From the NCBI RefSeq assembly GCF_008728835.1, contig NZ_CP042582.1, positions 1,984,001 through 2,048,000 of the forward strand: a stretch of DNA of 64,000 bases. Reading direction: 5' to 3'. Below, piece by piece: positions 4,040 through 52,448 of the stretch (the first letter of the stretch is position 1; each line of letters begins with the position of its first letter). Below the pieces are notes generated by a model that worked only from the letters and a program-made list of their open reading frames with translations, was not told the origin of the DNA and ran no database searches. The stretch comes from Hypericibacter adhaerens. GTDB lineage: Bacteria > Pseudomonadota > Alphaproteobacteria > Dongiales > Dongiaceae. Position numbers and translations under genes: made by a program.

Positions 4040-5347
4040 ATGGCTGCCGATCTGTCGAAAATCGCCAAAGAGCGGAAGATCAAGTATTTCCTGATCAGCT
4101 ACGTCGACCTGTTCGGCGTGCTGCGGGCCAAGCTGGCGCCGGCCGAGGCGATCGCCGGCATGCAGCGCGACGGCGCCGGTTTTGCCGGCTTCGCGACCTG
4201 GCTCGACATGACGCCGGCGCATCCGGACCTGTTCGCCCGTCCCGATCCCGACAGCCTGATCCAGCTCCCCTGGAAGCCCGAGGTGGGCTGGCTCGCCAGC
4301 GATCTCTGGATGGACGGCAAGGAGGTCGCGGACAGCCCGCGCGCCCAGCTCAAGAAGCAGATCGCCAAGGCGGCGACCAAGGGCCTGCGGATGAAGTCCG
4401 GTGTCGAATGCGAGTATTTCCTGATTACGCCCGATGGCAAATCGGTTGCGGATTCGCTCGATTCCCAGGAAAAGCCCTGCTACGACCAGATGGCGCTGAT
4501 GCGTCGCTACGACGTCATCACCGAGATCTGCAACTCGATGCTGGCGCTGGGCTGGAAGCCCTATCAGAACGACCATGAGGACGCCAACGGCCAGTTCGAG
4601 ATGAACTGGGAATATGATGACGCCCTCGTGACGGCCGACCGCCACGCCTTCTTCAAATACATGGTGCGCCAGATCGCCGAGAAGCACGGCATGCGCGCCA
4701 CCTTCATGCCGAAACCGTTCCTCAACCTGACCGGCAATGGCTGTCACGCCCATGTCTCGGTCTGGGACAAGACCGGCAAGACCAACCTGTTCCACGATCC
4801 CAAAGGCGAGCTGGGCCTCTCGAAGCTGGCCTACAGCTTCCTTGGCGGCGTCATCCACTCGGCCGACGCGCTCTGTTCCTTCTTCAATCCGACCGTGAAC
4901 AGCTACAAGCGCATCAACGCGCCCCGCACGCTCTCCGGCGCCACCTGGGCGCCCAACACCATCACCTATGGCGGCAACAACCGCACCCACATGGTCCGCA
5001 TCCCGGATGCCGGCCGATTCGAGCTGCGGCTGATGGACGGCGCGGCCAACCCCTATCTGCTGCAGGCGGGGGTGCTGGCGGCCGGCCTCGACGGGGTGGA
5101 GAACAAGCGCGACCCGGGGCCCCGCCTCGACATCAACATGTATACCGAGGGCCATAAGGTGAAGGGCGCCAAGAAGCTGCCCCTGAACCTCCTGGACGCG
5201 CTCCGGCTGACCGAGAAGAGCAAGGTGCTGCGCGAGGCCATGGGCGACAGCTTCATCGACGCCTATACGAAGATGAAGCATGAGGAATGGTCGCGCTATT
5301 GCCGCCACCTGACCCAGTGGGAGATCGAGAACACCCTGGATTGCTGA
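4040..5347 (+). CDS. gmaS: Gamma-glutamylmethylamide synthetase-like / type III glutamine synthetase
   Basis: A 435-residue ATP-dependent ligase of the glutamine synthetase fold. The N-terminal part has SYVDLFGVLRAKLAP and GAGFAGFATWLDMTPAHPD. The catalytic domain has NDHEDANGQFEMNWEYDD (metal/glutamate site), NGCHAHVSVWDK and ITYGGNNRTHMVRIPD followed by RFELRLMDGAANPYLL. In the N-methylglutamate pathway it joins glutamate and methylamine using ATP. The same subgroup is called GlnT in rhizobia, and sequence reading alone cannot separate true GmaS from GlnT. The position after mgsABC and before a formate-tetrahydrofolate ligase favours methylamine use. RBS GAGGGGGAA ends 5 bases before the ATG. 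Confidence 0.82.
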   Translation: MAADLSKIAKERKIKYFLISYVDLFGVLRAKLAPAEAIAGMQRDGAGFAGFATWLDMTPAHPDLFARPDPDSLIQLPWKPEVGWLASDLWMDGKEVADSPRAQLKKQIAKAATKGLRMKSGVECEYFLITPDGKSVADSLDSQEKPCYDQMALMRRYDVITEICNSMLALGWKPYQNDHEDANGQFEMNWEYDDALVTADRHAFFKYMVRQIAEKHGMRATFMPKPFLNLTGNGCHAHVSVWDKTGKTNLFHDPKGELGLSKLAYSFLGGVIHSADALCSFFNPTVNSYKRINAPRTLSGATWAPNTITYGGNNRTHMVRIPDAGRFELRLMDGAANPYLLQAGVLAAGLDGVENKRDPGPRLDINMYTEGHKVKGAKKLPLNLLDALRLTEKSKVLREAMGDSFIDAYTKMKHEEWSRYCRHLTQWEIENTLDC

Positions 5348-5459
5348 ATGGAAAGACAGGTTTCCGGGCCTCCCGGGAGCGTTTCCGGGGCGCCTCGAAC
5401 TGGTCCGGATTTGGTGTTCCCGGCGAGACCAATTCGCGTCGTTTCGGGACCATCCGGCG

Positions 5460-5491
5460 GGGCCGGGCCCGGATAGCCTCCGGCCCGGCCC
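5460..5491 (+). terminator. GC-rich hairpin after gmaS, possible terminator
   Basis: The arms GGGCCGGGCCCGGA (5460-5473) and TCCGGCCCGGCCC (5479-5491) pair over 13 bases with one bulged C and a five-base loop. Only TTTC follows, so termination may be partial. It lies in the 225-bp gap between gmaS and fhs. The same gap holds two GTTTCCGGG copies (5360-5368, 5381-5389). Confidence 0.5.
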
Positions 5492-5572
5492 TTTCGGTCG
5501 GCACCAGGCCGGGACAGGATCCCGTGCCCGTCGGCGCTCCTAGGGGCAGGCCAACCAAGAGGACTGGGGACG

Positions 5573-7255
5573 ATGATCAAGAAGGTCGGTAGCGATATCG
5601 AGATCGCGCGCGCTGCCAAGATGCAGCCCGTGGAGAAGATCGCCGAGAAGCTGGGGATTCCGGAGAAGCACCTGTTCCGCTACGGGCCCAGCAAGGCGAA
5701 GGTCGATCTCCACTATGTCGACAGCCTGAAGTCGCGCCCCGACGGCAAGCTGATCCTCGTCACCGCCATCACGCCGACGCCCGCGGGCGAGGGCAAGACC
5801 ACCACCACGGTCGGCCTCGGCGACGGCCTCAACCGGATCGGCAAGAAGGCCATCATCTGCCTGCGCGAGCCCTCGCTCGGGCCCTGCTTCGGCGTGAAGG
5901 GCGGGGCTGCCGGCGGCGGCTATGCCCAGGTCGTGCCGATGGAGGACATCAACCTCCATTTCACCGGCGACTTCCACGCGATCGGCACCGCCAACAACCT
6001 GCTGGCGGCCTTGATCGACAACCACATCTATTGGGGCAACGAGCTCGGCATCGATCCGCGCCGCATCTCCTGGCGCCGCGTGCTCGACATGAACGACCGC
6101 GCGCTGCGCTCGATCGTCTCCTCGCTCGGCGGCGTGGCCAACGGTTATCCGCGCGAGGACGGGTTCGACATCACGGTGGCTTCGGAGGTCATGGCGATCT
6201 TCTGCCTCGCCAGCGACCTCGACGACCTGACCCGCCGGCTCGGCAACATCATCGTCGCCTATACCCGCGACCGGAAGCCGGTCTATGCCCGCGACCTCAA
6301 GGCCGAGGGCCCGATGACCGTGCTGCTCAAGGACGCGCTGGCGCCCAACCTGGTGCAGACGCTCGAGAACAACCCGGCCTTCATCCATGGCGGCCCCTTC
6401 GCCAACATCGCCCATGGCTGCAACTCGGTGATCGCGACCCGCAGCGCCCTCAAGCTCGCCGACTATGTCGTGACCGAGGCGGGCTTCGGCGCCGACCTGG
6501 GCGCCGAGAAGTTCTTCGACATCAAGTGCCGCAAGACCGGCCTGAAGCCCTCGGCGGCGGTGATCGTCGCCACCATCCGCGCTCTCAAGATGCATGGCGG
6601 CGTGGCCAAGGAGGATCTCGGCAAGGAGAATGTCGAGGCGCTGAAGAAGGGCCTCGAGAACCTCGCCCGCCATGTCGAGAACGTGAAGCGCTTCGGCGTG
6701 CCGCCGGTGGTGGCGATCAACCGCTTCGTGGCCGACACGGACGCCGAGCTGGCGGCGCTCAAGCAGGCCTGCGCGGGGCTCGGCACCGAGGCCATCGAAT
6801 GTACCCACTGGGCCGACGGCAGCGCCGGCACCGAGGCCCTGGCGCATAGGGTCGTCCAGATCGCCGAGAGCGGAAAGTCCAGCTTCCAGACGCTCTATCC
6901 GGACGACATGCCGCTCTGGGACAAGGTCCGTACCATCGCCAAGAGCCTCTATGGCGCCAGCGACATCATCGCCGACAAGAAGGTGCGCGACCAGTTCGCC
7001 GAGTTCCAGAAGGCGGGTTTCGGGCATTACCCGATCTGCGTGGCCAAGACGCAGTACAGCTTCTCGACCGATTCCAACCTCAAGGGCGCGCCCTCGAACC
7101 ATGTGGTGCCGGTGCGTGAGGTCAAGCTGTCGGCCGGCGCCGAGTTCCTGGTGGTGATCTGCGGCGAGATCATGACCATGCCGGGCCTGCCCAAGGTGCC
7201 CTCCGCCAACCACATCAAGCTCAACGCCCAGGGCGAGGTCGAAGGGCTGTTCTGA
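5573..7255 (+). CDS. fhs: Formate-tetrahydrofolate ligase
   Basis: A 560-residue protein of full family length (about 557). It makes 10-formyltetrahydrofolate from formate, ATP and THF in the cytoplasm. The nucleotide loop [20 protein letters not shown] is at residues 67-86, and [20 protein letters not shown] and [20 protein letters not shown] follow as in the family. The start has GAGGACTGGGGACG directly upstream. In methylamine-using bacteria this enzyme handles one-carbon units released from N-methylglutamate, so its place after gmaS is meaningful. It may have its own promoter given the hairpin and 225-bp gap before it, and it ends at a good terminator. Confidence 0.96.
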
Positions 7256-7287
7256 CCGCCCTTCGCCTCCTCGGCTGAGATCCTCGG

Positions 7288-7324
7288 GCGGGCCGCTCCG
7301 GCGACGGGCGGCCCGCTTGCTTTT
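7288..7324 (+). terminator. Rho-independent terminator after fhs
   Basis: GCGGGCCGC (7288-7296) pairs perfectly with GCGGCCCGC (7308-7316) across an 11-base loop, followed by TTGCTTTT. It closes the mgs-gmaS-fhs block. Confidence 0.75.
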
Positions 7325-7448
7325 GCTCCCCGGCCTCGACCAATCGATCCGTCTTATCAATGGCTTCGGGCCGGCTTGCCGCCCGGCGGGCCGGCCTTTA
7401 ATGTCGCCGCCATCCCCTCCAGACCCACCAGATTTCGGGAGACATCGG

Positions 7449-8951
7449 ATGTCCGCTGCGCTGTCGATCGACACCGTCAAGGAGCAGGCCTCGCGCCTGA
7501 CCTTCCGCAACCAGGCCTTCATCAACGGCAAATATGTGCCGGCCGCTTCCGGCAAGACCTTCGACTGCATCAACCCCGCCACCGGCAAGGCGATCACCCA
7601 GATCGCCGAGGGCGACAAGGAGGATGTCGATCGCGCCGTCAAGGCGGCGCGCGCCGTCTTCGAGAAGGGCAGCTGGTCGCGCATGGCCCCGACCCAGCGC
7701 AAGAAGGTGCTCATGAGGTTCGCGAGCCTGATCGAGAAGCACACCACCGAGCTGGCGCTGCTCGAGACGCTCGACATGGGCAAGCCGATCCGCGACAGCT
7801 CGCGCATCGACGTGCCGCTCGCGGCCCAGGCGATCGGCTGGTATGCCGAGGCGATCGACAAGCTCTATGACGAGATCGCGCCGACCGGTCCCGAGGCCGT
7901 GTCGCTGATCCGGCGCGAGCCGGTGGGCGTGGTCGCGGCCGTGGTGCCCTGGAACTTCCCGCTGCTGATGGCCTCCTGGAAGATCGGCCCGGCGCTGGCC
8001 ACCGGCAACTCGATGATCGTGAAGCCGGCCGAGCAGTCGCCGCTGACGGCGATCCGCATCGCCGAGCTCGCGGCCGAGGCCGGCATCCCCGAGGGCGTGT
8101 TCAACGTGGTGCCCGGCTTCGGCGAGACCGCCGGCCAGGCGCTCGGCCGTCACATGGATGTCGACTGCGTGACCTTCACCGGCTCGACCGAGGTCGGCAA
8201 GTTTTTCCTGCGCTATGCGGGCGAGTCCAACATGAAGCAGGTCTCGCTCGAGTGCGGCGGCAAGTCGCCCAACATCATCATGGCCGACGCGCCGGACCTC
8301 GACGCCGCCGCGACTGCGGCCGCCTGGGGCATCTTCTTCAACCAGGGCGAGGTCTGCAACGCAGGCTCGCGCCTGGTCGTCGAGGAATCGGTCAAGGACC
8401 GGGTGCTCGAGAAGGTGATGGCCGTCGGCAAGAAGCTCATCCCCGGCGACCCGCTCGATCCCAAGACCGGCCTGGGCGCCATGGTCGACAAGACCCAGAT
8501 GGAGCGCGTGCTGGGCTATATCGAGGCCGGCAAGAAGGAAGGCGCCAGGCTCGCGCTCGGCGGCAGCCGCGTGAAGACCGAGACCGGCGGCTACTACATC
8601 GAGCCGACCGTGTTCGACAAGGTCGACAACAGGATGAAGATCGCCCAGGAGGAGATCTTCGGGCCGGTGCTCTCCACCATCACCTTCAAGGATGCCGACG
8701 AGGCGGTGAAGATCGGCAACGACACGATCTACGGCCTGGCGGCCGCGATCTGGACCAAGGACATCACCAAGGCCTTCAAGGTCTCGCAGGCGCTCAGGGC
8801 CGGCGTGGTGTGGGTCAATTGCTTCGACAACGGCCACATCTCCTCGCCCTTCGGCGGCTTCAAGCAGTCGGGCTTCGGCCGCGACAAGTCGCTGCACGCG
8901 ATGGAGAAGTATTCGCAGCTCAAGGCCACCTGGATCCATATCGGCGCCTGA
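7449..8951 (+). CDS. NAD(P)-dependent aldehyde dehydrogenase, PuuC-like
   Basis: A 500-residue aldehyde dehydrogenase. Catalytic Cys303 sits in NQGEVCNAGSRL, general base Glu268 in SLECGGKSPNII, and FTGSTEVGKFF is the coenzyme loop. LETLDMGKPIRDSSR and GWYAEAIDKLYDEIAPTG match gamma-glutamyl-gamma-aminobutyraldehyde dehydrogenase (PuuC) and close relatives that oxidise omega-amino aldehydes. I use the ATG at 7449 (MSAALSIDTVKEQ); an open frame continues upstream but runs into the fhs terminator. It is a single transcription unit between two terminators. The substrate is not fixed by sequence; a polyamine link would fit the N-carbamoylputrescine amidase and ornithine decarboxylase nearby. Confidence 0.9.
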   Translation: MSAALSIDTVKEQASRLTFRNQAFINGKYVPAASGKTFDCINPATGKAITQIAEGDKEDVDRAVKAARAVFEKGSWSRMAPTQRKKVLMRFASLIEKHTTELALLETLDMGKPIRDSSRIDVPLAAQAIGWYAEAIDKLYDEIAPTGPEAVSLIRREPVGVVAAVVPWNFPLLMASWKIGPALATGNSMIVKPAEQSPLTAIRIAELAAEAGIPEGVFNVVPGFGETAGQALGRHMDVDCVTFTGSTEVGKFFLRYAGESNMKQVSLECGGKSPNIIMADAPDLDAAATAAAWGIFFNQGEVCNAGSRLVVEESVKDRVLEKVMAVGKKLIPGDPLDPKTGLGAMVDKTQMERVLGYIEAGKKEGARLALGGSRVKTETGGYYIEPTVFDKVDNRMKIAQEEIFGPVLSTITFKDADEAVKIGNDTIYGLAAAIWTKDITKAFKVSQALRAGVVWVNCFDNGHISSPFGGFKQSGFGRDKSLHAMEKYSQLKATWIHIGA

Positions 8952-8981
8952 TCCGGCCGGGATCGTCGCGCCGTACCGAAG

Positions 8982-9018
8982 ACGGGGAAGCGGGCAGCCG
9001 CTTCCCCGTTTGCTTTTT
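8982..9018 (+). terminator. Strong rho-independent terminator after the aldehyde dehydrogenase
   Basis: ACGGGGAAGCGG (8982-8993) and CCGCTTCCCCGT (8998-9009) form a perfect 12-bp stem with a GCAG loop, followed by TTTGCTTTTT. This is the clearest intrinsic terminator in the window. Confidence 0.9.
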
Positions 9019-9041
9019 CGCGGAACGCGGGAGGAGACGTC

Positions 9042-9797
9042 ATGGAACTGCAGGGAAAATCGGTCCTGATCACGGGTGCCAGCTCCGGCATCGGCGCCGC
9101 GATCGCGCGGGTCGCGGCGGCGGCCGGCGCACGCCTCATGCTGACCGGCCGCTCCGCCGAGCGGGGCGAGGCGGTGCGGCGCGACTGCGGCGCCGAGGCT
9201 AGGTTCGTGGCGGCCGATGTCACCCAGAAGGGGGCCGCGGAGCGCCTCGTCGAGGAGACGGTCCGGCAGTTCGGCCGGCTCGATGTGCTGGTCAACAATG
9301 CCGGCGTGATCCATCGCGGTACGGTCGCGACCACCAGCGACGAGGAGTGGGAGCGCCTGTTCTCGGTCAACGTGACGGGCGTGTTCTACATGGCGCGGGC
9401 GGCGGTGCGCCAGATGCAGCGCCAGGGCGGCGGCACCATCGTCAATATCGGCTCGGACTGGTCGGTGGTGGCGGGGCGCGACGCCTTCGCCTACTGCGCC
9501 AGCAAGGGGGCGGTGGCGCAGATGACCCGCGCCATGGCGCTCGACCATGCCCGCGAAGGCATCCGCGTCAATTGCCTCTGCCCGGGGGACACCGAGACGC
9601 CGATGCTGGTCTCCGGCCTCGAGGTACGCACCGGCGATGTCGCGCGCGGGATCAAGGTTCTGGGCGAGGCCCTGCCGCTGGGCCGGGTGGGCAGGCCGGA
9701 GGAGATCGCGAAGGCGGCGGTCTTCCTGGCTTCCGACGCTTCCTCGTTCATGACCGGCAGCCTGATGCTGGTCGATGGCGGCAACACCGCCGGCTGA
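9042..9797 (+). CDS. Short-chain dehydrogenase/reductase (SDR)
   Basis: A 251-residue classical SDR with a Rossmann fold. TGASSGIG (NAD(P) loop) is at residues 12-19, NNAG is near 89, and the catalytic YCASK follows a Ser-containing strand. The C-terminal FMTGSLMLVDGGNTAG is typical of FabG-like oxidoreductases. RBS GGAGGAGACGTC precedes the ATG. It stands alone between a terminator and a convergent gene. The substrate cannot be told; it reduces or oxidises a hydroxyl/keto group. Confidence 0.88.
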   Translation: MELQGKSVLITGASSGIGAAIARVAAAAGARLMLTGRSAERGEAVRRDCGAEARFVAADVTQKGAAERLVEETVRQFGRLDVLVNNAGVIHRGTVATTSDEEWERLFSVNVTGVFYMARAAVRQMQRQGGGTIVNIGSDWSVVAGRDAFAYCASKGAVAQMTRAMALDHAREGIRVNCLCPGDTETPMLVSGLEVRTGDVARGIKVLGEALPLGRVGRPEEIAKAAVFLASDASSFMTGSLMLVDGGNTAG

Positions 9798-9817
9798 CGG
9801 CGAGTTCGCCGCCGATC

Positions 9818-11473
9818 TCAGCTGGCGCCGTATTTCTGGCGCAGCAGCTTCTTGTCGGTCTTGCCGACGCTGGTCTTCTCGATCGAGGACACGAACAGGA
9901 ACCGCTCGGGGATCGCGTATTTCGGCAGAAGGCCGTTCTGGCAATGCGCCAGCAGATGCTGCTGCAGCAGTTCCGTGGTCAATTGCCCTTCATGGCCGGG
10001 CCGCACCACCACCAGCGCCAGCGGGCGCTCGCCCCATTTCATGTCCTTGATGCCGATGACCGCGACCTCGGCGACGCCGGGATGCTGCGAGATCAGGCTC
10101 TCGAGCTCCAGCGACGATACCCATTCGCCGCCGGTCTTGATCACGTCCTTGATCCGGTCGGTGATCTGCAGATAACCGTCGGGCCTGCGGGTGGCGACGT
10201 CCTGGGTGTGGAGATAGCCGCCGCGCCACAGCGCCTCGGAGCTCTTGGCATCGTGCAGATAGCCCTGGGTCAGCCAGGGCGCGCGCACGACGATCTCGCC
10301 GACCGACTTGCCGTCCGCGGGCATCTCGTTCATGTCCGTATCGACGATCTTGATGTCGACCATCGCGATCGGCAGACCGGTGCGGCAGCGGACCGCCAGC
10401 TCCTCCTCGTCGGAGAGCGTGCCTTGATCCTCGGGTCTGACCTGCGAGGCGGTCAGGATCGGGCAGGTCTCGGACATGCCGTAGCCGCACCAGATGTCGA
10501 TGCCGCGGCTGCGGGCCGCGCGCGCGAGGCCCTTCGGCAGGGCCGAGCCGCCGATCACGACCTTCCAGCCGTTGAGATTGGCGCTCGCCGCCTCGGAGCA
10601 GTTCAGCACCATCTGCATGACCGCCGGGACGCAATGGGAATAGGTGACGCCTTCCGCGACGAACAGCTTCACGATCATGTCGGGCTGGTAGCGGCCGGGA
10701 TAGACCTGCTTCACGCCGAACAGCGTGGCGAGATAGGGGAAGCCCCAGGCATGGACATGGAACATCGGCGTCAATGGCATGTAGACGTCGCCGCGATGGA
10801 ACGACTGGCCACCCGGATGGCTCCCGGTGGTGAGGCCGACGGCCAGCGTATGCAGGACGAGCTGGCGGTGGCTGAAATAGACCGCCTTGGGCAGCCCGGT
10901 GGTGCCGGTCGTATAGAAGGTGGTGGCGCGGGTGTTCTCGTCGAAATCGGGGAACGCGTAGCCCGGCGGCGCGCGCTCCAGCAGCGCTTCGTACTCGCCG
11001 GCGAAGCGCGCCGGGTCGAGTGCCGCCGGAGCCCCGTCGGCGATCAGCACCACCGTCCGGACCGTTTTCAGCCGGTCGCGAATGGCATCGAGCACCGGCA
11101 GGAAGTCGGCATGGACCAGCAGCAGGTCGGCGCGGGCATGATCGAGGCAGTAGAGGATCTGCTCGGGCGCGAGGCGCACATTCGTCGTCATCAGGACGGC
11201 GCCCATCATCGGCACGGCGAAATAGGTCTCGAGATAGCGATGGCTGTCCCAATCCATCACCGCGACCGTGTCGCCGGGCTTCACCCCCAGCGTTGCCAGC
11301 ATGTTGGCCAGCCGCCCGATGCGCCCCTGCAGGTCGCGATAGCGGTACCGCAAACGGTCGCGATAGACGATTTCCTGATCCGGCGTCGTCGCCAGCGGTG
11401 TCAGCAGAAGCTGCTTGATCAGCAGCGGATAAGCGTAAGCCGATGGCGTCGTCTCGACCAAATTGGCCGGCAT
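9818..11473 (-). CDS. AMP-forming acyl-CoA ligase (medium/long-chain fatty acid type)
   Basis: An adenylate-forming ligase of about 551 residues. The P-loop variant FYTTGTTGLPKAV, the GYGMSETCPI motif, the hinge region (ITDRIKDVIKTGGEWVSS) and the C-terminal lysine in SVGKTDKKLLRQKY are all present, so it should be active. The closest familiar group is AlkK-like medium-chain fatty-acid CoA ligase. Start choice is uncertain: ATG 11473 has GGGGGC six bases upstream, and in-frame ATGs exist at 11491 and 11530. It is monocistronic and convergent with the SDR. Confidence 0.88.
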   Translation of the reverse strand: MPANLVETTPSAYAYPLLIKQLLLTPLATTPDQEIVYRDRLRYRYRDLQGRIGRLANMLATLGVKPGDTVAVMDWDSHRYLETYFAVPMMGAVLMTTNVRLAPEQILYCLDHARADLLLVHADFLPVLDAIRDRLKTVRTVVLIADGAPAALDPARFAGEYEALLERAPPGYAFPDFDENTRATTFYTTGTTGLPKAVYFSHRQLVLHTLAVGLTTGSHPGGQSFHRGDVYMPLTPMFHVHAWGFPYLATLFGVKQVYPGRYQPDMIVKLFVAEGVTYSHCVPAVMQMVLNCSEAASANLNGWKVVIGGSALPKGLARAARSRGIDIWCGYGMSETCPILTASQVRPEDQGTLSDEEELAVRCRTGLPIAMVDIKIVDTDMNEMPADGKSVGEIVVRAPWLTQGYLHDAKSSEALWRGGYLHTQDVATRRPDGYLQITDRIKDVIKTGGEWVSSLELESLISQHPGVAEVAVIGIKDMKWGERPLALVVVRPGHEGQLTTELLQQHLLAHCQNGLLPKYAIPERFLFVSSIEKTSVGKTDKKLLRQKYGAS

Positions 11474-11709
11474 GCTGCCCCCGAAATCCATCAAGCCCAC
11501 GGCAACTGGCGGTTGCCGCGGCCTTGTCATTCGACACGTCCCCGGGAGCCAGTATGGCACGGCGGCAGGACCGGCATGTAGTCCCATCGCGATGCTGATC
11601 CGGTTCTTGATTTGCGAATCGGTCAGGAAAGCGGTCGGAACGGGAGACAGCCTCGCCCGCCGGCCGCGAACGTCAGGCAGGATTGCGGGCGGTTACCGCT
11701 CGGGAACGG

Positions 11710-12588
<879 letters not shown>

Positions 12589-12781
12589 CGATCCGTATCC
12601 TGAGGTCGATATCCCGAGGGTCCCTTGCCGTGACGCCGGCAGCGACGTGCATTGGGGTGAATTAGACCGAGGGAGCCCGGGCTCTGCAAGCAGGAGATCA
12701 TGGCACCTGCCATGTGCGTCGCGGGCGGGCGCCGATGTGAGAAGAGGAGGGCAGGGAAAAATTTGCGCCGAGGCGCAGCCG

Positions 12782-13522
12782 TCACGTTGCGGCGGCGGCC
12801 TGGAGCGAGGCGCGCTGCCAGCCGTCGGCGCCGTAGAGCTCGATCGGGCGGAAGCGGGATTTGTATTCCATCTTGCGGCTGCCCTCGACCCAATATCCCA
12901 GATAGACATAGGGGAGGCCCCAGCGCTGCGCCTCGCGGATCAGCCAGATCACCACGTAGCTGCCGAGGCTGCGGGCCGGCAGCTCGGGATCGAAGAAGCT
13001 GTAGACCGCCGACACGCCGTCCTTGGTCCAGTCCGTGAGACAGCAGGCCATCAGGGTTCCCGAAGGCGCGCGCAGCTCGACGACGCGCGTGTCGAGCGGG
13101 CTGGTCTCGATCATCGCGCCATATTCCTGCAGATTCATGCCGAGCATCTCGCCATCGCTGTGGCGATGCTCGAGATAGCGGCTGAAGAGGCGGTACTGCT
13201 CCTGGGTGGCGCGTGCGGGCCGCACGGCGCTGCGGAGGTCCTGGTTGCGCCGCTCGATCCGGCGCAGCGTGCGACCGGGATCGTACTCGTCCGCGACGAC
13301 GCGCACCGGCACGCAAGCCTGGCAACCGCGGCAGGCGGGGCGGTAGGCGATGCCATGGCTCCGCCGGAAGCCGGCGCGCGACAGGGTCTCGTAGGTGTCG
13401 GCGGCCGTGGGGCCCGACAATTCCGTCACGACCTTGCGCTCCATCCTTGCCGGCAGATAGGGGCAGGGGAGTTCCGTCGTGACCAGGAAGGGGAGCGGCC
13501 GGGTGCGGTTGAGGATACTCAT
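12782..13522 (-). CDS. bpt: Aspartate/glutamate leucyltransferase (L/F-transferase-like ATE family)
   Basis: A 246-residue enzyme that adds leucine from Leu-tRNA to N-terminal Asp/Glu in the N-degron pathway. The N-terminal ELPCPYLP and the cysteine cluster RPACRGCQACVPVRV match the ATE N-domain. YSFFDPELPARSLGSYV and YVYLGYWVEGSRKMEYK are the family's C-terminal GNAT-like signatures. The length is normal for bacterial Bpt. It is monocistronic. The 285 bp upstream (13523-13807) show no gene. Confidence 0.95.
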   Translation of the reverse strand: MSILNRTRPLPFLVTTELPCPYLPARMERKVVTELSGPTAADTYETLSRAGFRRSHGIAYRPACRGCQACVPVRVVADEYDPGRTLRRIERRNQDLRSAVRPARATQEQYRLFSRYLEHRHSDGEMLGMNLQEYGAMIETSPLDTRVVELRAPSGTLMACCLTDWTKDGVSAVYSFFDPELPARSLGSYVVIWLIREAQRWGLPYVYLGYWVEGSRKMEYKSRFRPIELYGADGWQRASLQAAAAT

Positions 13523-24332: not shown

Positions 24333-25436
24333 CTACTTGCCCCAGATCCGGCGATAGGCCTGGCGATAGCCGTTGGGCGGATCGAAGAAGAAACCCTCGC
24401 CCACCGCGCCGGCAAGGTTGCCACTGGTGAAGAGGCGCGGGCGCGGAACGTAGCCGCTCGGCCGTTCGTTGTGGAAGGCGCGGTTGAGTTCGTCGATCAA
24501 CTGCCAGCCCTGGAGATTGAGCGGCTCCGCGACGGTGGCGGTCTGGCCCAGCCCCGTGCCGACCCGCAGGAATGCCGAGGTCGAGCCGTCGCCGGCCGAG
24601 ATGTTGACGAGGTCGGCCCGCGCGTCGGGCAAGGCCGCCATGGCGTCGAAATAGAGGTCGTTGATGCCGAGATTGACGGTCCAGCGATCGCCGAACTGTC
24701 GGTCCAGGTTCTCCAGGCGGGCCGGCATGTCCTCGGCGGTACGGTCGAGGCGGACATCCTCGATCGACAGCAGCTGGCAGCCGGGGCAGTTCTTCACGAT
24801 CGTGGCCATGTCGTCGGTCTTGGCCTGGGCCACAGAGAAGCGGGAATCCGTGAAAATCACGAACCCGCCAGCCCCGCCGCTCTTGACCACGGCATAGGAG
24901 GCCGCCGCCAGCGCCACTTCGCGCGCGCTGCTGGCCACGTTGGTGAAAAGCTGGGTGCCGGGCACGATGCCGGGCTCGTAGGCGGCATGCCAGCCGATCA
25001 CGGTCATGCCGGCGGCGGCGACGTTGTCGATCCAGGGCGCGTAGGGCGTCGCGTCGAAGCCGGCAAAAATGACGCCGTCGAAATGCGCCGCGGCGATGTC
25101 AAGCAGCGCCTTCTTGCGGTCTTCGTCGTTGCTCGCCGTGTCGAAGACCTGAAGCTTCCACCCGATCGCTTCCGCCGCTTCCTCGACGCCGTTGAGGGCG
25201 CCCTTGACGCCGCCATTCTTCAGATCGGAGGCGACGAAGGCGATCGTCTTGCCGGTCGCGGCCTCGGGACCGGTCGTCGGGCCGTTCCAGACCGTGAGAT
25301 CCTCCAGCGCCAGGTTGGCCCGCTGCTGGGCGATCGACAGGGAGTCGGCGGAGGGTGCCGCCAGTGCCGGCATTGCGGCGGCGAGCAGGAACGTTCCCGC
25401 GAGCAGCACCCGCGCGGCGACCCGGCGCGGGTTCAT
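24333..25436 (-). CDS. Periplasmic ribose-binding-type sugar-binding protein
   Basis: A 367-residue secreted protein. The signal peptide covers residues 1-26 (RVLLAGTFLLAAAMPALAA, cleavage after ALA). The Peripla_BP_4 fold starts at about 62 (GKTIAFVASDLKNGGVKGAL), with FDGVIFAGFDATPYAPWID and AAGMTVIGWHAA as the hinge regions. No ABC permease or ATPase adjoins it. Its ATG overlaps the stop of the upstream sensor gene (ATGA), so the two are co-translated. A role as ligand sensor for that receptor is more likely than transport. The ligand is unknown. Confidence 0.85.
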   Translation of the reverse strand: MNPRRVAARVLLAGTFLLAAAMPALAAPSADSLSIAQQRANLALEDLTVWNGPTTGPEAATGKTIAFVASDLKNGGVKGALNGVEEAAEAIGWKLQVFDTASNDEDRKKALLDIAAAHFDGVIFAGFDATPYAPWIDNVAAAGMTVIGWHAAYEPGIVPGTQLFTNVASSAREVALAAASYAVVKSGGAGGFVIFTDSRFSVAQAKTDDMATIVKNCPGCQLLSIEDVRLDRTAEDMPARLENLDRQFGDRWTVNLGINDLYFDAMAALPDARADLVNISAGDGSTSAFLRVGTGLGQTATVAEPLNLQGWQLIDELNRAFHNERPSGYVPRPRLFTSGNLAGAVGEGFFFDPPNGYRQAYRRIWGK

Positions 25437-28366
25437 GCGCTGGCCCTCCGCCGCAGCGGCTCGATGTCGACCGCATCGATCTGCGCCGGCGACAAATATT
25501 GCTCCGAATAGCGGCGATAGACGCCCGAGGCGAGGAACAGATCGAAGAGATCGGGATCGATATGGTTGGTATCGCGCATCTTCGCCATGATGGCGAGCGA
25601 TTCCGACAGCGTCTTGGCCTTCTTGTAGGGGCGGTCGCCCGCGGTCAGCGCCTCGAAGATGTCGGCGATGGCCATCATGCGCGCCGGTACGCTCATCTCG
25701 TCGCGCTTGAGCCGCTTGGGATAGCCGGTACCATCCATCTTCTCGTGATGGCCGCCGGCGATCTCGGGCGCATTGCGCAGATGGCGCGGCAGCGGCAGCC
25801 GCGTCAGCATCCGGATCGTCTCGATCATGTGCTCGTTGATCTTGTAGCGCTCCTCCTCGGTGAGCGTACCGCGCTGGATCGTCAGGTTGTAGATCTCGCC
25901 GCGGTTATAGAGATATTCCGGCACCTTGACCTTGAAGCCCCAGGGATTGTCGGCGGCGATCTTCTCGCGGTCGGGCCGCAGGATGATGTGCTCGGGCTTG
26001 TCGGCGAGCAGCGGCTCGCTGACGGGAAGCGGGGCCGCCTGCTGGCGCGACTTGCGTTCGGCCTCGTCGTAAGAGACGCCGATCCGGTCGTCGAGGGTGC
26101 GGGTCCAGCGCCGCTCGGCGATCTTCCTCACGCGCTCGATATCGGGCGGCGCCATGAATTCGCCGCCGACATTGCTCCTGGCAAGGAAGGCGAATTCCTC
26201 GTCCAGGGTCGCCCAGAGCTTGTCCAGCTCGGCGAGGGCGGCCGTCCGGTCGGCGCCCTCGGCGATCGATTTCCAGCAGGCCACCTCGGCTTCGCGCTTG
26301 ATCACCTCGAAGCGCATCCGGACCTCGTGCAGCCGGTCATAGATCGTCTCGAGCTTGGTCGCCTTGTCGATGACGTATTCGGGCGAGGTCACCTTGCCGC
26401 AATCGTGGAGCCAGGCGGCGATATGCAGCTCTTCCCACTGCTCCTCGGTCAGGGAGAAGTCCTTGAAGGCGCCGTCCTCGCTGTCCTGGGCCGCTTCGGC
26501 CAGGAGCTCGGTCAGCACCGGCACGCGCTGGCAATGGCCGCCGGTATAGGCGCTCTTGGAGTCGATGGCGCCGGCGGTCAGCTCGATCAGGCTCTGCAGC
26601 AGGTCCTTCTGCTCCTGGATCAGGCGCTGCGTCTCGATCGCCACGGCGGCGGTGCCAGAGATCGCCTCGACCAGCGCCAGCCGGTCCGCCATGGTGCGTT
26701 CGCTCAAGCTCTCTTCCTCGGGCGAGACCAGGAGCACCCCGATCACCTGGCCCTGCCGGTCGCGCAAGGCCACGGCCATGGAGATCAGCGGCTTGTCGGC
26801 ATTGAGATGGGGATGCCAGCGGCGCAGATCCTCGACGCTCAACCTCTTGGCGCATTTGCCCTCGTTGAAGGCGATGACGAGGGGATGATCCTTGTCCTGC
26901 GCGAGATCGAAGAGGGTCGGCACGATCTGCCGGTCCTGTCCGTCCCAATAGGCGAAGCGGGGTTCCAGCTTGCCATCGTCATTCACCAGATAGATGAGGC
27001 CGCCGCGCGCGTTGGTGATGGCGGTGGTCTCGGACAGGATCCGGCTCAGCAGCCGGTCGAACTTCCGCTCGCCGCCCAGGACCGAGCCGATCGACAGCAG
27101 GCGATGGATGGTGCTCTTCATCCGGTCCATCGACCGGGCCAGCTTGTCGATCTCGTCGATGAAGGAGCGGACCGTGATCGGCTCGTCGAACTTGAGCGCC
27201 TGGACCGCCCGCGTCTCGCGGATCAGCGCCTTGAGCGGGCCGGACGCCAGCCGAGACAGGATGTAGGTGATCGGGATGGCGAACAGCAGCATGGCGACGG
27301 AAAGCCAGAGGCTGATATTGCGGATGCGGGTGGCGGTCGCGAGCAGCTCGCGCTGGGGTGCCGCGATCGCGATGTAGTAGGAGCTCTTGTCGGACGCCCA
27401 GCCCGTGACGATGCCCTGCCAGATTCCGTCGGGCGTGTTGTAGGCGCGCGTGCGATTGAGCTCGGTGGAGGCGTGCGCCGAAATTGCGCTCAGCAGCGGA
27501 TGGCTGAGGTCCTCGATCTTGGGCAGTCGCGGCGTTCCCAGATCGTCGACCTGGAGCTTGTAATCGGAATCCGTGTCCGCCAGGACCTCGCCCTTCTCGT
27601 TGAAGATGAAGATCTGCGCCGACGGCGTCGGGCGCTGCGTGTCCAGGAAGCTCGACAGGGCGCCCAGCGTCACGTCGACGCCGACCACGGCGGTCCCGTT
27701 GATGGAGGCTTGCGCCACCGTCGCGCCGACTTCGCGGGTGGTATAGAAAAGGTAAGGTGCCGTCGAGATCACGCGCTGCTGGCCCTGCGCGGCCTGGTAC
27801 CAGGGACGCGTGCGCGGGTCGAAGATATAATTCGGCACCGGCTGGCTGGAGAGCTGGGTCAGGTCGTCCGAATAGAGCACGAAGCGCGGATCGCGCAGGC
27901 CTTCCGTGTCGCGCGCCATGCTCTGCACCAGATAGGCGGCCTCCGGCGGCGCGCCCAGCGCACGGCCGAGGAAGGAATGGGGATCGAAGCGCCGCAGCAG
28001 GAAGAAGTCGCCGTTCTGGTAGCCGACATAGACGGCCGACACTTCCTGATGGTTCTGCAGCACCGCCGCCATCAGCGGCAGCCGCACCAGCCGCTTGTCG
28101 AGCGTGTTGGCATCGATGAGCGAGCTGCGCGACAGCAGCTCGGCGGCGCTTCGCGCCGGCTGATAGATCGCCGCGATCGATTGTTTGACTTCCTGGCCGA
28201 TCCGATTGAAGAGGGTTTCGGCCGAGGAGAGCATCATGCCGCGGCTGAGATAATGCTGGGTCGCGATGGAGATCGCCGCGAAGGCGACCAGCAGGGCCAG
28301 GAACAGGGTCGCGATATAGATGTGCAGACGGAACGTGCGTTTGCGGAAACCCGGCCGGTCGGCCAT
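25433..28366 (-). CDS. Membrane sensor with Cache, HAMP, GAF and HD-GYP domains
   Basis: A 977-residue predicted c-di-GMP phosphodiesterase. Membrane helix 1 is at about 15-35 (YIATLFLALLVAFAAIS), a periplasmic double-Cache-like region runs to about 340, helix 2 is at 345-365 (LSVAMLLFAIPITYIL), then HAMP, a GAF domain at about 430-590 and HD-GYP to the end. All metal/catalytic motifs are present: TGGHCQRV, HDCGK (His654), INEHM, HHEKMDGTGYP (His873) and ADIFEALTAGDRPY. HD and HHE are 219 residues apart, far more than the roughly 55-65 in standard domains, so a large insertion is present. It overlaps the periplasmic binding protein gene by 4 bp. Confidence 0.93.
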   Translation of the reverse strand: MADRPGFRKRTFRLHIYIATLFLALLVAFAAISIATQHYLSRGMMLSSAETLFNRIGQEVKQSIAAIYQPARSAAELLSRSSLIDANTLDKRLVRLPLMAAVLQNHQEVSAVYVGYQNGDFFLLRRFDPHSFLGRALGAPPEAAYLVQSMARDTEGLRDPRFVLYSDDLTQLSSQPVPNYIFDPRTRPWYQAAQGQQRVISTAPYLFYTTREVGATVAQASINGTAVVGVDVTLGALSSFLDTQRPTPSAQIFIFNEKGEVLADTDSDYKLQVDDLGTPRLPKIEDLSHPLLSAISAHASTELNRTRAYNTPDGIWQGIVTGWASDKSSYYIAIAAPQRELLATATRIRNISLWLSVAMLLFAIPITYILSRLASGPLKALIRETRAVQALKFDEPITVRSFIDEIDKLARSMDRMKSTIHRLLSIGSVLGGERKFDRLLSRILSETTAITNARGGLIYLVNDDGKLEPRFAYWDGQDRQIVPTLFDLAQDKDHPLVIAFNEGKCAKRLSVEDLRRWHPHLNADKPLISMAVALRDRQGQVIGVLLVSPEEESLSERTMADRLALVEAISGTAAVAIETQRLIQEQKDLLQSLIELTAGAIDSKSAYTGGHCQRVPVLTELLAEAAQDSEDGAFKDFSLTEEQWEELHIAAWLHDCGKVTSPEYVIDKATKLETIYDRLHEVRMRFEVIKREAEVACWKSIAEGADRTAALAELDKLWATLDEEFAFLARSNVGGEFMAPPDIERVRKIAERRWTRTLDDRIGVSYDEAERKSRQQAAPLPVSEPLLADKPEHIILRPDREKIAADNPWGFKVKVPEYLYNRGEIYNLTIQRGTLTEEERYKINEHMIETIRMLTRLPLPRHLRNAPEIAGGHHEKMDGTGYPKRLKRDEMSVPARMMAIADIFEALTAGDRPYKKAKTLSESLAIMAKMRDTNHIDPDLFDLFLASGVYRRYSEQYLSPAQIDAVDIEPLRRRASA

Positions 28367-28625: not shown

Positions 28626-29000
28626 CTAGCGCTGAGGGCCGTAGCCGTATTCGCCGCCGACGCCGAGCACCAGGTTGGCGCCGGCCTGGTAGAGCCGGTC
28701 GCGGAAGCCCGGCTGGTCCGAGATGGCCACGACTCCGCCGCCGATCCCGGTGTTCGCCAGGACCCGGCCATGGGCCGCCTCGACGACCGCTGCGGCGTCC
28801 TCGGGACCGCCGCCCAGCACGAAGACGCTGACCGGCACCGGCGTGACGTCGGACGGGCTCGGCGCGGCGATGGCACCGATGGCCAGCAGGCTGCCGAAGA
28901 GGGCGAAGACGAGGATGGCGACCAGGCGGGCGCCGGACGCATCCTTGGCGCGGGGCTGGGTGGGAGCGGCGGAAGCGCCGCTGGCGATGATGGCGGTCAT
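28626..29000 (-). CDS. Small single-pass membrane protein of unknown function
   Basis: A 124-residue protein not assigned to a family. Residues 1-22 are polar, one membrane helix follows (LVAILVFALFGSLLAIGAIAA), and a C-terminal domain of about 75 residues begins PVPVSVFVLGGGPEDAAAVVEAAHGRVLANTG and ends in a glycine-rich tail (GVGGEYGYGPQR). The C-terminal part is probably periplasmic. Codon bias matches its neighbours, which supports a real gene. The 259 bp on its downstream side (28367-28625) contain nothing I can name. Confidence 0.6.
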   Translation of the reverse strand: MTAIIASGASAAPTQPRAKDASGARLVAILVFALFGSLLAIGAIAAPSPSDVTPVPVSVFVLGGGPEDAAAVVEAAHGRVLANTGIGGGVVAISDQPGFRDRLYQAGANLVLGVGGEYGYGPQR

Positions 29001-45301: not shown

Positions 45302-45436
45302 CGGGCGGACAGCCTAGCTGATAGCCACGGTTGCGAGAGTTTTGGGCAGGTCCGGCCGAGCCGGATCGGCCCCCGAAGAATGTGAAGCGGCCGCGGTTTG
45401 CCGCTCACGGGTGTTCGGCAGGGGAGGACATCGATC

Positions 45437-46435
45437 GTGGCGATGGCGACCACCACGGGCGTGCGCAAGTCCGGCTACAAGCCGAGCCAGGCGACGATCG
45501 TCCTGGGGCTGACGCTGGTGCTTTTCGTGGCCTTGAGCGCCGGGCTGCCCGGCTTCCTGACGCTCGGCAATTTCTTCACGCTGGCGCGCGGCGTCTCGAT
45601 CCTGGGCATCCTGGCCTTGGGCATGGCGGTCGTCGTCATCGGCCGCGGCATCGATCTCTCCCAGATCGCCACGCTCGCCGTCTCGGCCGCCATCGCCGTG
45701 ACCCTCATCAATGCCGGCGCGCCGGTCCTCGTCGGCCTTTTCGCCGGGCTGGTGCTGGCGATCGCGATCGGCGTGCTCAACGGCTACCTGATCTCGGTCG
45801 TCGAGATCCCGGCGCTTTTCACCACGCTGGCGACGGCGCTCTTCGCGCTGGGCGTGACCCGCGCGCTGGTCGTGCCGCACTACCAGGTCTTCCTCGAGCC
45901 CGGCCATGACTGGTTCCTGGCGCTGGGCGGCACGCTTGCCGACGGGCTGCCGGTGCCGGTCATCGTGTTCGCGGTCTGCGCCGTCCTGCTGCATCTGTTC
46001 CTGTCGCGCACCGTGCTCGGCCGCTTCATCTACGCCCATGGCGACAACGCCCAGGCGGCGCGGCTCTCGGGCATCGCGACCCGTCCGCTGACGATGCTGG
46101 AATACGGTCTCTGCTCGGCCATCGGCTATGTGGGCGGCGTCGTCATGGTGGCATCGACCTCGCTGATCCATCTGCAGATCGCGGAATCGACCATGATCTT
46201 CGACGTGATCCTGGTGGTCGTGCTGGGCGGGGTCAGCCTCGTGGGCGGGCGCGGCAATGTCGTCAGCGTGATCGCCGGGACGCTTCTCATCGGCGTCCTG
46301 CTCAACGCCATGACGATCATGAATCTCGACGTCCAGACCCAGGACATGATCAAGGGCGCCGTTCTGCTCTGCGCGATCATGTTCGACAGCTACGTGCATC
46401 CTCGCGACGAGGAGACCGCGAAACAGGGGGATTGA
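45437..46435 (+). CDS. Sugar-type ABC importer permease (RbsC-like)
   Basis: A permease of about 332 residues from the ribose/autoinducer-2 transport family (BPD_transp_2). Conserved segments are GILALGMAVVVIGRGIDLS, NGYLISVVEIPALFTTLAT, VLGRFIYAHGDNAQAARLSGI and VVVLGGVSLVGGRGN. I place the start at GTG 45437, 8 bases after GGGGAGGA; an ATG at 45443 lies further than ideal. First gene of the operon that continues through the binding protein, the fused permease, a propeller protein and the ATPase. It would pair with the fused permease as a heterodimer. Confidence 0.9.
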   Translation: MAMATTTGVRKSGYKPSQATIVLGLTLVLFVALSAGLPGFLTLGNFFTLARGVSILGILALGMAVVVIGRGIDLSQIATLAVSAAIAVTLINAGAPVLVGLFAGLVLAIAIGVLNGYLISVVEIPALFTTLATALFALGVTRALVVPHYQVFLEPGHDWFLALGGTLADGLPVPVIVFAVCAVLLHLFLSRTVLGRFIYAHGDNAQAARLSGIATRPLTMLEYGLCSAIGYVGGVVMVASTSLIHLQIAESTMIFDVILVVVLGGVSLVGGRGNVVSVIAGTLLIGVLLNAMTIMNLDVQTQDMIKGAVLLCAIMFDSYVHPRDEETAKQGD

Positions 46436-46506
46436 GATCGGGCAACCGGGCGCCGCTCGGCGCTCGTAAAACAACAAGTCGTTCTTCGGCACTAGGGAGG
46501 AAACCA

Positions 46507-47541
46507 ATGTCGTTCAGAAAATACGGGTTCGCCGGAATTCGCACCGCCGTGGCTGTCGCCGCCTTGACGGCCATCGGGATCACGATCGGCGCCGGCGCCA
46601 TCGGCAAGGCGCAGGCCGCCGATCCGCGCGAGGAGCTGTTCCAGAAATTCACCGCCGCGACCAAGGGCAAGAAGGTCGCCTGGGTTCCCGTCTGGCTCGG
46701 CGTGCTCGAGTCCGAATGGACCCGCGTGATGAAGGCCAATTTCGACAATTACGGCATCGAGCTCACGATGCGCGATCCGAACTTCAAGTCGGACGTGCAG
46801 CTCCAGGCCGTCAGCACGCTCATCAACGAGAAGCCCGACATCCTGATCGTGCAGAACCCGACCACCACGCTGCTGGCCCGCGAGCTCAAGCGCGCCATGC
46901 AGTCGGGGATCAAGGTGATCCAGGTCAACATGTCCTCGAACACCACGACCGACGCCTATGTCGGCGCCGACGTTCCGCATATGGGCCGGGTGCTGGCGCA
47001 GGAGACGCTGAACGTCTGCGGCGGCGGCAAGGGATCCGGCAAGGTCGCGATCCTGCAGGGCGAGGCCACGGCGGCCTATTCGCTCGACATGACCAAGGCG
47101 GCGACCGAGGTGCTGGGAACCGATCCCACGATCAAGATCGTCTCCTCGCAGCCGACGAACTGGGACGCCAACAAGGGCGCCGAGATCATGACCAACGTGT
47201 TGCAGCAGAATCCCGATCTCTGCGCCGTCATCAGCGTCTGGGGCCCGCAGACCGCCGGCGCCGCGCAGGTGATCAAGAACGCCGGCAAGCAGGGCGAGAT
47301 CAAGGTCTTCGTGGCCAGCGACGGCCAGCCCGCCGACTGCGACCTGCAGGAGCAGGGGCTCTACACCAAGATCCTCTCCTACACCGCCAACCTCCAGGGC
47401 GAGGCGATCGTGAACGCCGCGCTGGCGCTGCTGCAGGACGACCGGCCCGCCGGTTCCACCCAGTACGCGTTCTACACCACCAACTACTGGGTGAGCGGGC
47501 CGCAGGACCGCCAGTACTGCTTCACCGTGCCGAAGGAATAG
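46507..47541 (+). CDS. Sugar-type periplasmic substrate-binding protein
   Basis: A 344-residue secreted binding protein. The signal peptide is residues 1-37 (AVAVAALTAIGITIGAGAIGKAQAA, cleavage after AQA). The Peripla_BP_4 fold starts KKVAWVPVWLGVLESEW, with LINEKPDILIVQNP and GIKVIQVNMSSNT at the hinge. Four or more cysteines (NVCGGGKG, PDLCAVIS, ADCDLQ, YCFTVP) could form disulfides, which is unusual for this family. The start at 46507 has AGGGAGGAAACC upstream. A stable hairpin follows the gene. Confidence 0.9.
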   Translation: MSFRKYGFAGIRTAVAVAALTAIGITIGAGAIGKAQAADPREELFQKFTAATKGKKVAWVPVWLGVLESEWTRVMKANFDNYGIELTMRDPNFKSDVQLQAVSTLINEKPDILIVQNPTTTLLARELKRAMQSGIKVIQVNMSSNTTTDAYVGADVPHMGRVLAQETLNVCGGGKGSGKVAILQGEATAAYSLDMTKAATEVLGTDPTIKIVSSQPTNWDANKGAEIMTNVLQQNPDLCAVISVWGPQTAGAAQVIKNAGKQGEIKVFVASDGQPADCDLQEQGLYTKILSYTANLQGEAIVNAALALLQDDRPAGSTQYAFYTTNYWVSGPQDRQYCFTVPKE

Positions 47542-47570
47542 CTCCTATCGCCCGGCTCGACTCCGCTTTG

Positions 47571-47605
47571 GCCGACGCCCCCGCCGAAAGGCGGCGGGCG
47601 TCGGC
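47571..47605 (+). terminator. Intercistronic hairpin with GAAA tetraloop after the binding-protein gene
   Basis: GCCGACGCCCCCGCC and GGCGGCGGGCGTCGGC form a stem of 15 pairs with one bulge, closed by a GAAA (GNRA) tetraloop. No T-tract follows, so it is more likely an mRNA 3'-end stabiliser or partial attenuator than a full terminator. It would give more binding protein than membrane components, as in maltose and other ABC operons. It ends 26 bp before the next start. Confidence 0.65.
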
Positions 47606-47630
47606 GCCTGCGCTGACCAATGGATTCGGC

Positions 47631-49802: not shown

Positions 49803-50900
49803 CATCATCGATCGCGTCTTCTTCCCGAACCGCGATGTCCATGCGATCCCGGTGCTCGATGGCGGCTTCTCGCCGAACCAGCGCCTCGAGCAGGCCGAGG
49901 TTCTGGCCTCGTTCGAGGCGCCCGATTCCCTGGCGCTGGGACCGGACGGGCGGCTCTATGTGTCGGCCGGCCCGGCGATCCATGCTTGCTCGGGCAGCCG
50001 CCTCGACAAGCCGGAGATCTTCGCGCGGGCCGAGGCGCCCGTCAGCGCCCTCCGCTGGACAGGCGACGGCAGGCTGCTCGCAGCCGTCGACGGCCGGGGC
50101 CTCCATGCCTTCGATCGCGGCGGCAAGCTGGTGGCGCGCCTGGATGCGCTGGGGGGCGTGCCGCTGCGCTGCGTGACTGCTATCGCCGTCGCTGCCGACG
50201 GCACGGTCTATGCCACCGACGGGTCGCGCCATAACGAGGCCGCGCAGTGGCTGACCGACCTGATGCAGAACCGGCGAGGCTCGGGCCGGCTCATCGCCGC
50301 CGCGTCGGACCTTTCTAATCCCCGCCTTGTCAAGGACGGCTTGTCCTGGCCCGCGGGTGTCGCGATCGGCCATGACGAGAAGGAAGTGCTGGTGGGCGAA
50401 GCCTGGGCGCACGGGCTTTCGGCCGTGAGCCGGGCCGACGGAAGCGTTCGCAGGCTGGTCAGGAACTTCGTCGGCTATCCGGGCCGCATCTGCCGTAGCG
50501 CCAAGGGCGGCTACTGGGTCGCGTTCTTCGCGCTCAGGACCCAGCTCACCGAGTTCATCCTGCGCGAGCCGATCTTCCGGATGAAGATGATGGAGCAGGT
50601 GCCGCCCGACCTGTGGATCGGCCCGACGCTCGGCGGCAAATTCGACTATCGCGAGCCGACGCAGATCGGGCGCATCAAGAAGCTCGGCATCCAGAAACCC
50701 TGGGCGCCGCCGCGCTCCTACGGGTTGGTCGCGCGTCTCGACGAGCAGGGGCAGGCGCTGGAGAGCCTGCACAGCCGCGTCTCCGGCAACCTCCATGGCA
50801 TCACCGATGTCGCCGAGATCGGGACGACGCTCTACGCCGTCTCGAAGGGGCATGGGAAGGTGGCGTCGGTCGCGCTGACGCCGGCCGCGGGAGGCCGGGC

Positions 50901-50904
<4 letters not shown>
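49786..50904 (+). CDS. Free-standing beta-propeller paralogue of the fused domain
   Basis: A 372-residue cytoplasmic propeller of the strictosidine-synthase-like/SMP-30 clan, without a signal peptide. It is clearly paralogous to the propeller in the upstream fusion: GYPGRICRSAKGGYWVAF versus GYPDNINRASDGNYWLAF, then FRMKMMEQVPPDLW versus FRVRMVKQIPPDEW. Two of three putative metal ligands differ: Asn becomes Ala190 (WPAGVAI) and Asp becomes Gly233, while the Glu in FEAPDSL stays. It may be a non-catalytic binding or regulatory partner. The start at 49786 follows GAGGGTGGG and overlaps the fusion gene; its end overlaps the ATPase gene (ATGA). Confidence 0.82.

Positions 50905-52448
<1,544 letters not shown>

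Follow-up and report, generated by a model that had tools for sequence, protein, structure and literature searches.

A transporter-less ribose-type binding protein encoded with an HD-GYP receptor in Hypericibacter adhaerens: a candidate two-part sensor with cyclic-dinucleotide output

Our analysis of a 64,000-nucleotide stretch of the genome of the alphaproteobacterium Hypericibacter adhaerens (NZ_CP042582.1, positions 1,984,001 to 2,048,000; hereafter the window) focuses on two overlapping genes, one for a membrane-bound sensor with an HD-GYP output domain and one for a periplasmic binding protein of the ribose type (P0001). With a probability of about 0.62, we propose that these genes specify a two-part receptor in which the binding protein relays an outside, sugar-acid-like signal to the HD-GYP sensor, thereby changing the level of cyclic di-GMP (c-di-GMP). 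We base this reading on the gene arrangement, the domains and folds of both proteins, their co-inheritance within the genus, the absence of a transporter, the residues that have been kept, and the existence of similar relatives. The features of the pair, all located on the minus strand, are the following:

25433-28366, minus strand: sensor gene, 977 amino acids, with a first transmembrane helix (TM1), dCache, a second transmembrane helix (TM2), HAMP, GAF and HD-GYP (open reading frame, Pfam, model)
27326-28255, minus strand: periplasmic region of the sensor, residues 38-347, a double Cache and presumed docking site (hydropathy, dCache_1, fold match)
27104-27259, minus strand: HAMP linker of the sensor, residues 370-421 (Pfam)
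26633-27061, minus strand: GAF domain of the sensor (GAF_2), residues 436-578 (Pfam)
25529-26587, minus strand: HD-GYP output domain, about residues 594-946 (Pfam HD_5, alignment with PmGH 4mcw, 43 homologues)
25871-26353, minus strand: insert of about 150 residues in the HD-GYP domain, about residues 672-832 (gap in the PmGH alignment, motifs in alignment A2)
25433-25436, minus strand: ATGA stop/start overlap of the two genes (direct sequence reading)
24333-25436, minus strand: binding-protein gene (P0001), 367 amino acids, ribose-binding fold, second gene of the pair (open reading frame, Pfam, model)
25356-25436, minus strand: signal peptide of the binding protein, residues 1-27, ending PALA before APS (sequence, hydropathy)

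Direct reading of the sequence confirmed the coordinates, the strand and the ATGA overlap that the first-pass annotation of this DNA had reported: the sensor gene lies upstream and ends with the stop codon TGA (25435-25433), and the ATG of the downstream binding-protein gene occupies 25436-25434. Pfam recognizes dCache_1, HAMP, GAF_2 and HD_5 in the sensor, and two hydrophobic helices predicted from hydropathy (about residues 14-36 and 350-372) flank some 310 periplasmic residues. The predicted model of the sensor (predicted local distance difference test, pLDDT, 84.5) matches the dCache domains of the chemoreceptors Tlp3 and PctA and the HD-GYP protein PmGH (4mcw), so that the large, Cache-like periplasmic region claimed at the outset holds up. 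The same is true for the assignment of its partner to the ribose-binding type. This protein carries a Sec signal peptide with an AxA end and without a lipobox Cys, possesses a Peripla_BP_4 domain (E=1e-14), and yields an AlphaFold model (pLDDT 89.9, pTM 0.86) whose top Foldseek match is the ribose-binding protein 2ioy (TMt 0.87), with XylFII (5xss) also among the fold matches. Relatives in the PDB were not found by single-sequence phmmer at 1e-3, but profile A1 did find some. By fold and sequence, P0001 is kin to the substrate-binding proteins of ribose-type (CUT2) ATP-binding cassette (ABC) transporters, its nearest relatives outside the genus being 38-48% identical.

That the pair lacks any ABC transporter, as had been claimed for the locus, holds for the whole genome, which is one complete contig and which we surveyed by family and protein searches. 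In 29 of the 45 aligned binding proteins, the same permease is encoded directly upstream (49-76% identical to the permease of locus L172), and these ABC-linked loci mostly also carry an ATPase (48-63% identical). A search of the H. adhaerens genome for a cognate permease of P0001, in contrast, returned best matches of only 22-32% identity. Each of its 33 CUT2-type permease matches has a Peripla_BP_4 match within 7 kb; the permease nearest to P0001 is 21 kb off and has its own binding protein. Four Peripla_BP_4 matches in this genome have no CUT2 permease nearby, and two of these resemble LacI-type regulators. Since no close permease is present and all 33 permeases are already served, P0001 is, as judged from these searches, a transport orphan without a cognate ABC transporter. 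A remote partner transporter was rejected, as the permeases are at most about 32% alike and all have a Peripla_BP_4 gene in their vicinity. The first-pass annotation had named partnership with a distant ABC system in related genomes as a finding that would speak against signalling; outside the genus, most of the closest relatives are indeed genuine ABC substrate-binding proteins, whereas P0001 itself is transporter-less.

Ligand binding has probably been retained by P0001: the ABC-linked proteins share 99 columns with a conservation of at least 90%, and in 73 of these neither of the paired binding proteins departs from the conserved residue. L245D and R293G are examples of changes specific to the pair. 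Genes near the ABC-linked relatives resemble those for L-idonate 5-dehydrogenase, gluconate 5-dehydrogenase, GntR/IdnR regulators and 6-phosphogluconate dehydrogenase, and our best guess for the ligand would be an aldonic acid, e.g., gluconate or idonate.

The proposed co-occurrence of the two genes in other genomes was found in one genome of the same genus (G001) and nowhere else among the 96 relatives that were searched. In this genus mate, the genes lie side by side, 4 bp apart, and the flanking gene neighbourhood is kept. The receptor is 73% and the binding protein 68-70% identical between the two genomes. Purifying selection acts on both genes (dN/dS 0.26 and 0.29), and their neighbours, which encode a decarboxylase, a penicillin amidase and a deaminase, evolve more slowly. 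Within the receptor, the periplasmic part (66% identical) has changed faster than the HD-GYP part (83%). The pair is real and probably functionally linked, for which the indirect support is good. In another genome, G367, a receptor of the nearest subfamily (L145) and a P0001 relative that has no transporter (L171) are present at unlinked sites.

The two-part receptor is also favoured by two wider patterns, in which relatives of each partner recur in similar arrangements. Among the relatives of P0001, nine that lack ABC genes adjoin sensor kinases (L008, L011, L012, L021, L024, L032, L038, L042 and L107). The genes for the binding protein and the kinase overlap at L011, where a contig end cuts the kinase; the kinases at L012 and L024 show dCache_1 matches below the Pfam cut-off (E 1e-10 and 2e-8), and those at L021 and L032 a weak four-helix-bundle domain. 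At L021 (Paraburkholderia, 8001-12787), a row of genes encodes the binding protein, a histidine kinase of the four-helix type and, after them, a response regulator with both GGDEF and EAL. Response regulators with HD-GYP are present at L032 and L107; in the latter (G058, 4575-10680), the gene for the P0001 relative has a divergent hybrid histidine kinase on one side and the HD-GYP response regulator on the other, an independent link of this protein family to a cyclic-dinucleotide output. The paired binding proteins form a long-stemmed clade of their own (support 100/100). The tree, with its deep branches and several of its long rows being uncertain, requires no fewer than three switches from one context, transport or signalling, to the other. 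These switches and the kinase-linked relatives suggest that the family probably moved into signalling repeatedly, also towards c-di-GMP-type outputs.

Full-length homologues of the receptor occur throughout the window's family and in other Pseudomonadota. In 10 of the 43 loci examined (L092, L094, L098-L101, L103, L156-L158), a SBP_bac_3 gene without transporter genes is found directly upstream of the receptor gene, an assignment made by Pfam for seven of the ten and by similarity for the rest. Searches with two of these binding proteins gave 29 matches, 26 of which adjoin a receptor, namely all 22 that come from one gammaproteobacterial family and reach at least 48% identity, plus all 4 from the window's class. 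The remaining three, which do not lie beside a receptor, are 29-33% identical. SBP_bac_3 is unrelated in kind to the Peripla_BP_4 family of P0001, and the positions differ as well, SBP_bac_3 partners being encoded upstream (alpha- and gammaproteobacteria) and the ribose-type partner downstream (this genus). It is tempting, at somewhat less than an even chance, to view the insert-bearing dCache-HAMP-GAF-HD-GYP receptors as a class that repeatedly recruits dedicated, transporter-less binding proteins of unrelated folds; solutes caught outside the cell by these exchangeable partners would then directly set cyclic-dinucleotide breakdown. In G014 (L090:6786-10269), a small cupin-like protein, not a binding protein, is encoded 10 bp after a nearest-subfamily receptor (55-57% identical).

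The HD-GYP domain had been described as complete, and much of this description stands. HD (residues 654-655), the motif HHE..DG.GYP (HHEKMDGTGYP, 873-883), the seven metal ligands and the Lys are all present; in the alignment with 4mcw, H611, H654, D655, H846, H873, H874, K658 and D902 of the sensor equal H189, H221, D222, H250, H276, H277, K225 and D305 of PmGH. The first seven of these are invariant in the 43 receptor homologues, and D902 is found in 42 of them. What departs from a canonical domain are two replaced residues, to which we return below, and the insert of about 150 amino acids after the HD, which is typical of the receptor family. The nearest solved HD-GYP structures, V-cGAP3 and PmGH, lack both this insert and a dCache domain. 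The sensor likely hydrolyses a cyclic dinucleotide, and its substrate would most likely be c-di-GMP.

Taken together, the pair lends itself to the following model. P0001, derived from a family of sugar-acid ABC transporters, would have left transport and would now capture an extracellular solute. In its loaded or its empty form, it would dock onto the dCache domain of the sensor and alter the signal that passes via TM2, HAMP and GAF to the HD-GYP domain, thereby setting the phosphodiesterase activity in one direction or the other. The HD-GYP domain would then lower the level of its cyclic dinucleotide, most likely c-di-GMP.

Several observations weigh against this model. The pair is found in two sampled genomes of a single genus, a number too small for tests of co-evolution or mirror trees. 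In the wider family, the majority of receptors (e.g., L149-L153 and L162-L167) have no adjoining binding protein, as is also the case for the nearest-subfamily receptors of G014, G057 and G367; a binding protein is therefore not obligatory for this type of receptor, and the dCache domain of the sensor may itself bind a ligand. On the output side, Asp183 and Glu185 of PmGH are replaced by Ser605 and Tyr607 in the sensor, and this is the state of the whole receptor family. One could argue that P0001 continues to work in transport, supplying one of the genome's many CUT2 sugar transporters in trans, and that its place behind the sensor gene is coincidental or only regulatory. The ABC linkage of 29 of its 45 relatives, the retention of most family-conserved residues, and the 33 CUT2-type permease matches in the genome speak for this explanation; we nevertheless consider it improbable, given that the best permease of this genome reaches about 30% identity versus 49-76% among the relatives, that a Peripla_BP_4 gene lies within 7 kb of every CUT2 permease, and that the tight pairing and synteny are kept in the genus mate. 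dCache domains usually bind ligands directly, and with so many family members standing alone, the dCache domain could sense a small ligand of its own, with P0001 delivering or sequestering this ligand or serving a separate receptor. This, too, we judge unlikely, since SBP_bac_3 proteins recur directly beside related receptors, and relatives of P0001 are found next to receptors of other types, among them dCache kinases. Moreover, the Asp of the amino-acid-sensing dCache motif corresponds to Ala192 in the sensor, a position that varies across the receptor family.

The replaced residues bear on the substrate. V-cGAP3 (5z7c), an enzyme for 3'3'-cGAMP, has the same replacements as the sensor, so that both c-di-GMP and 3'3'-cGAMP are possible substrates. 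V-cGAP3 is the protein VCA0931. In one study, VCA0931 did not cut c-di-GMP (PMC4212101), and PmGH loses its activity in the D183A variant (PMC4159591). The HD-GYP domain might act on a different cyclic dinucleotide (3'3'-cGAMP, for example) or bind c-di-GMP with weak or no activity, in which case the output would be something other than c-di-GMP breakdown. We find this rather doubtful, because the remaining metal ligands are invariant or nearly so in the 43 homologues, unlike the situation in the degenerate DvhD protein, and because the E185A variant of PmGH is weakened but keeps some activity (PMC4159591).

Two other observations concern the surroundings of the pair. Upstream of it, positions 28626-29000 (minus strand) encode a one-helix protein of 124 amino acids that belongs to no known family and is 76% conserved in the genus mate; its gene may share a transcript with the pair. 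Further away in the window, positions 45398-52448 (plus strand) harbour an ABC sugar operon of the CUT2 type that includes a Peripla_BP_4 protein of its own. One of its open reading frames (46716-49802) fuses a BPD_transp_2 permease to a strictosidine-synthase/SMP-30-like propeller, a fusion that looks unusual, and a second propeller follows.

The first-pass annotation had likened the pair to LuxP-LuxQ, in which a ribose-binding-type protein acts together with a membrane receptor with a tandem PAS/Cache-like region to sense autoinducer 2 (AI-2) and to control a histidine kinase phosphorelay. The likeness extends to the exported protein of ribose fold and the dCache periplasmic domain of the receptor, but not to the output, which is HD-GYP without a histidine kinase; membership of the LuxPQ type was rejected because the kinase output is absent. 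TorT-TorS and XylFII-LytS likewise involve class I (ribose-type) binding proteins that signal to histidine-kinase receptors, and are resembled by the nine kinase-linked relatives of P0001, not by the window pair.

By output, NspS-MbaA and ScrB-ScrC are the nearest known systems, closer than LuxPQ. NspS-MbaA of Vibrio cholerae and Sinorhizobium meliloti consists of a transporter-less periplasmic binding protein that acts on a membrane c-di-GMP enzyme (PMC8967002, PMC9993111). It shares with the window pair the location of the gene for such a protein beside that of a membrane cyclic-dinucleotide enzyme, and differs in that NspS is PotD-like and binds polyamines and MbaA has GGDEF-EAL, as opposed to Peripla_BP_4 and HD_5. 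In Vibrio parahaemolyticus, the periplasmic signal-binding ScrB switches the c-di-GMP enzyme ScrC, both being encoded in one operon (PMC10269520). MbaA and ScrC are both bifunctional for c-di-GMP (PMC8967002, PMC10269520), and the Scr system has a third, signal-making gene, scrA, no counterpart of which was recognised at the window pair. DvhD of Desulfovibrio vulgaris combines a periplasmic dCache and a cytoplasmic HD-GYP domain in one membrane protein, but its HD-GYP is degenerate (HD replaced by SQ) and only binds c-di-GMP (PMC13090378); its periplasmic partner is the protease DvhG instead of a binding protein, and the signal runs outward. A census from 2022 listed periplasmic-binding-protein (PBP) clan domains within c-di-GMP proteins, of which only SBP_bac_3 is reported as studied (PMC8846402). 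In the literature searched, with subscription papers outside its scope, we found no HD-GYP receptor that takes its input from a separate solute- or periplasmic-binding protein.

Collectively, the signalling pair suggested by the first-pass annotation is supported in part, by its freedom from a transporter, its co-inheritance within the genus and the similar logic among relatives, while its proposed direct link to c-di-GMP is not new in principle because NspS-MbaA and ScrB-ScrC already provide one; compared with the known systems of a binding protein and a c-di-GMP enzyme, only the HD-GYP output is new. Few HD-GYP enzymes have an identified input signal, and the binding-protein inputs in the literature searched reach only c-di-GMP enzymes of the GGDEF-EAL type. 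A conserved family of binding protein and HD-GYP receptor would thus provide a direct handle on ligands and on the response of the receptor, and it would indicate how a single family of receptors can acquire a new input when the whole periplasmic partner is exchanged for one of another fold.

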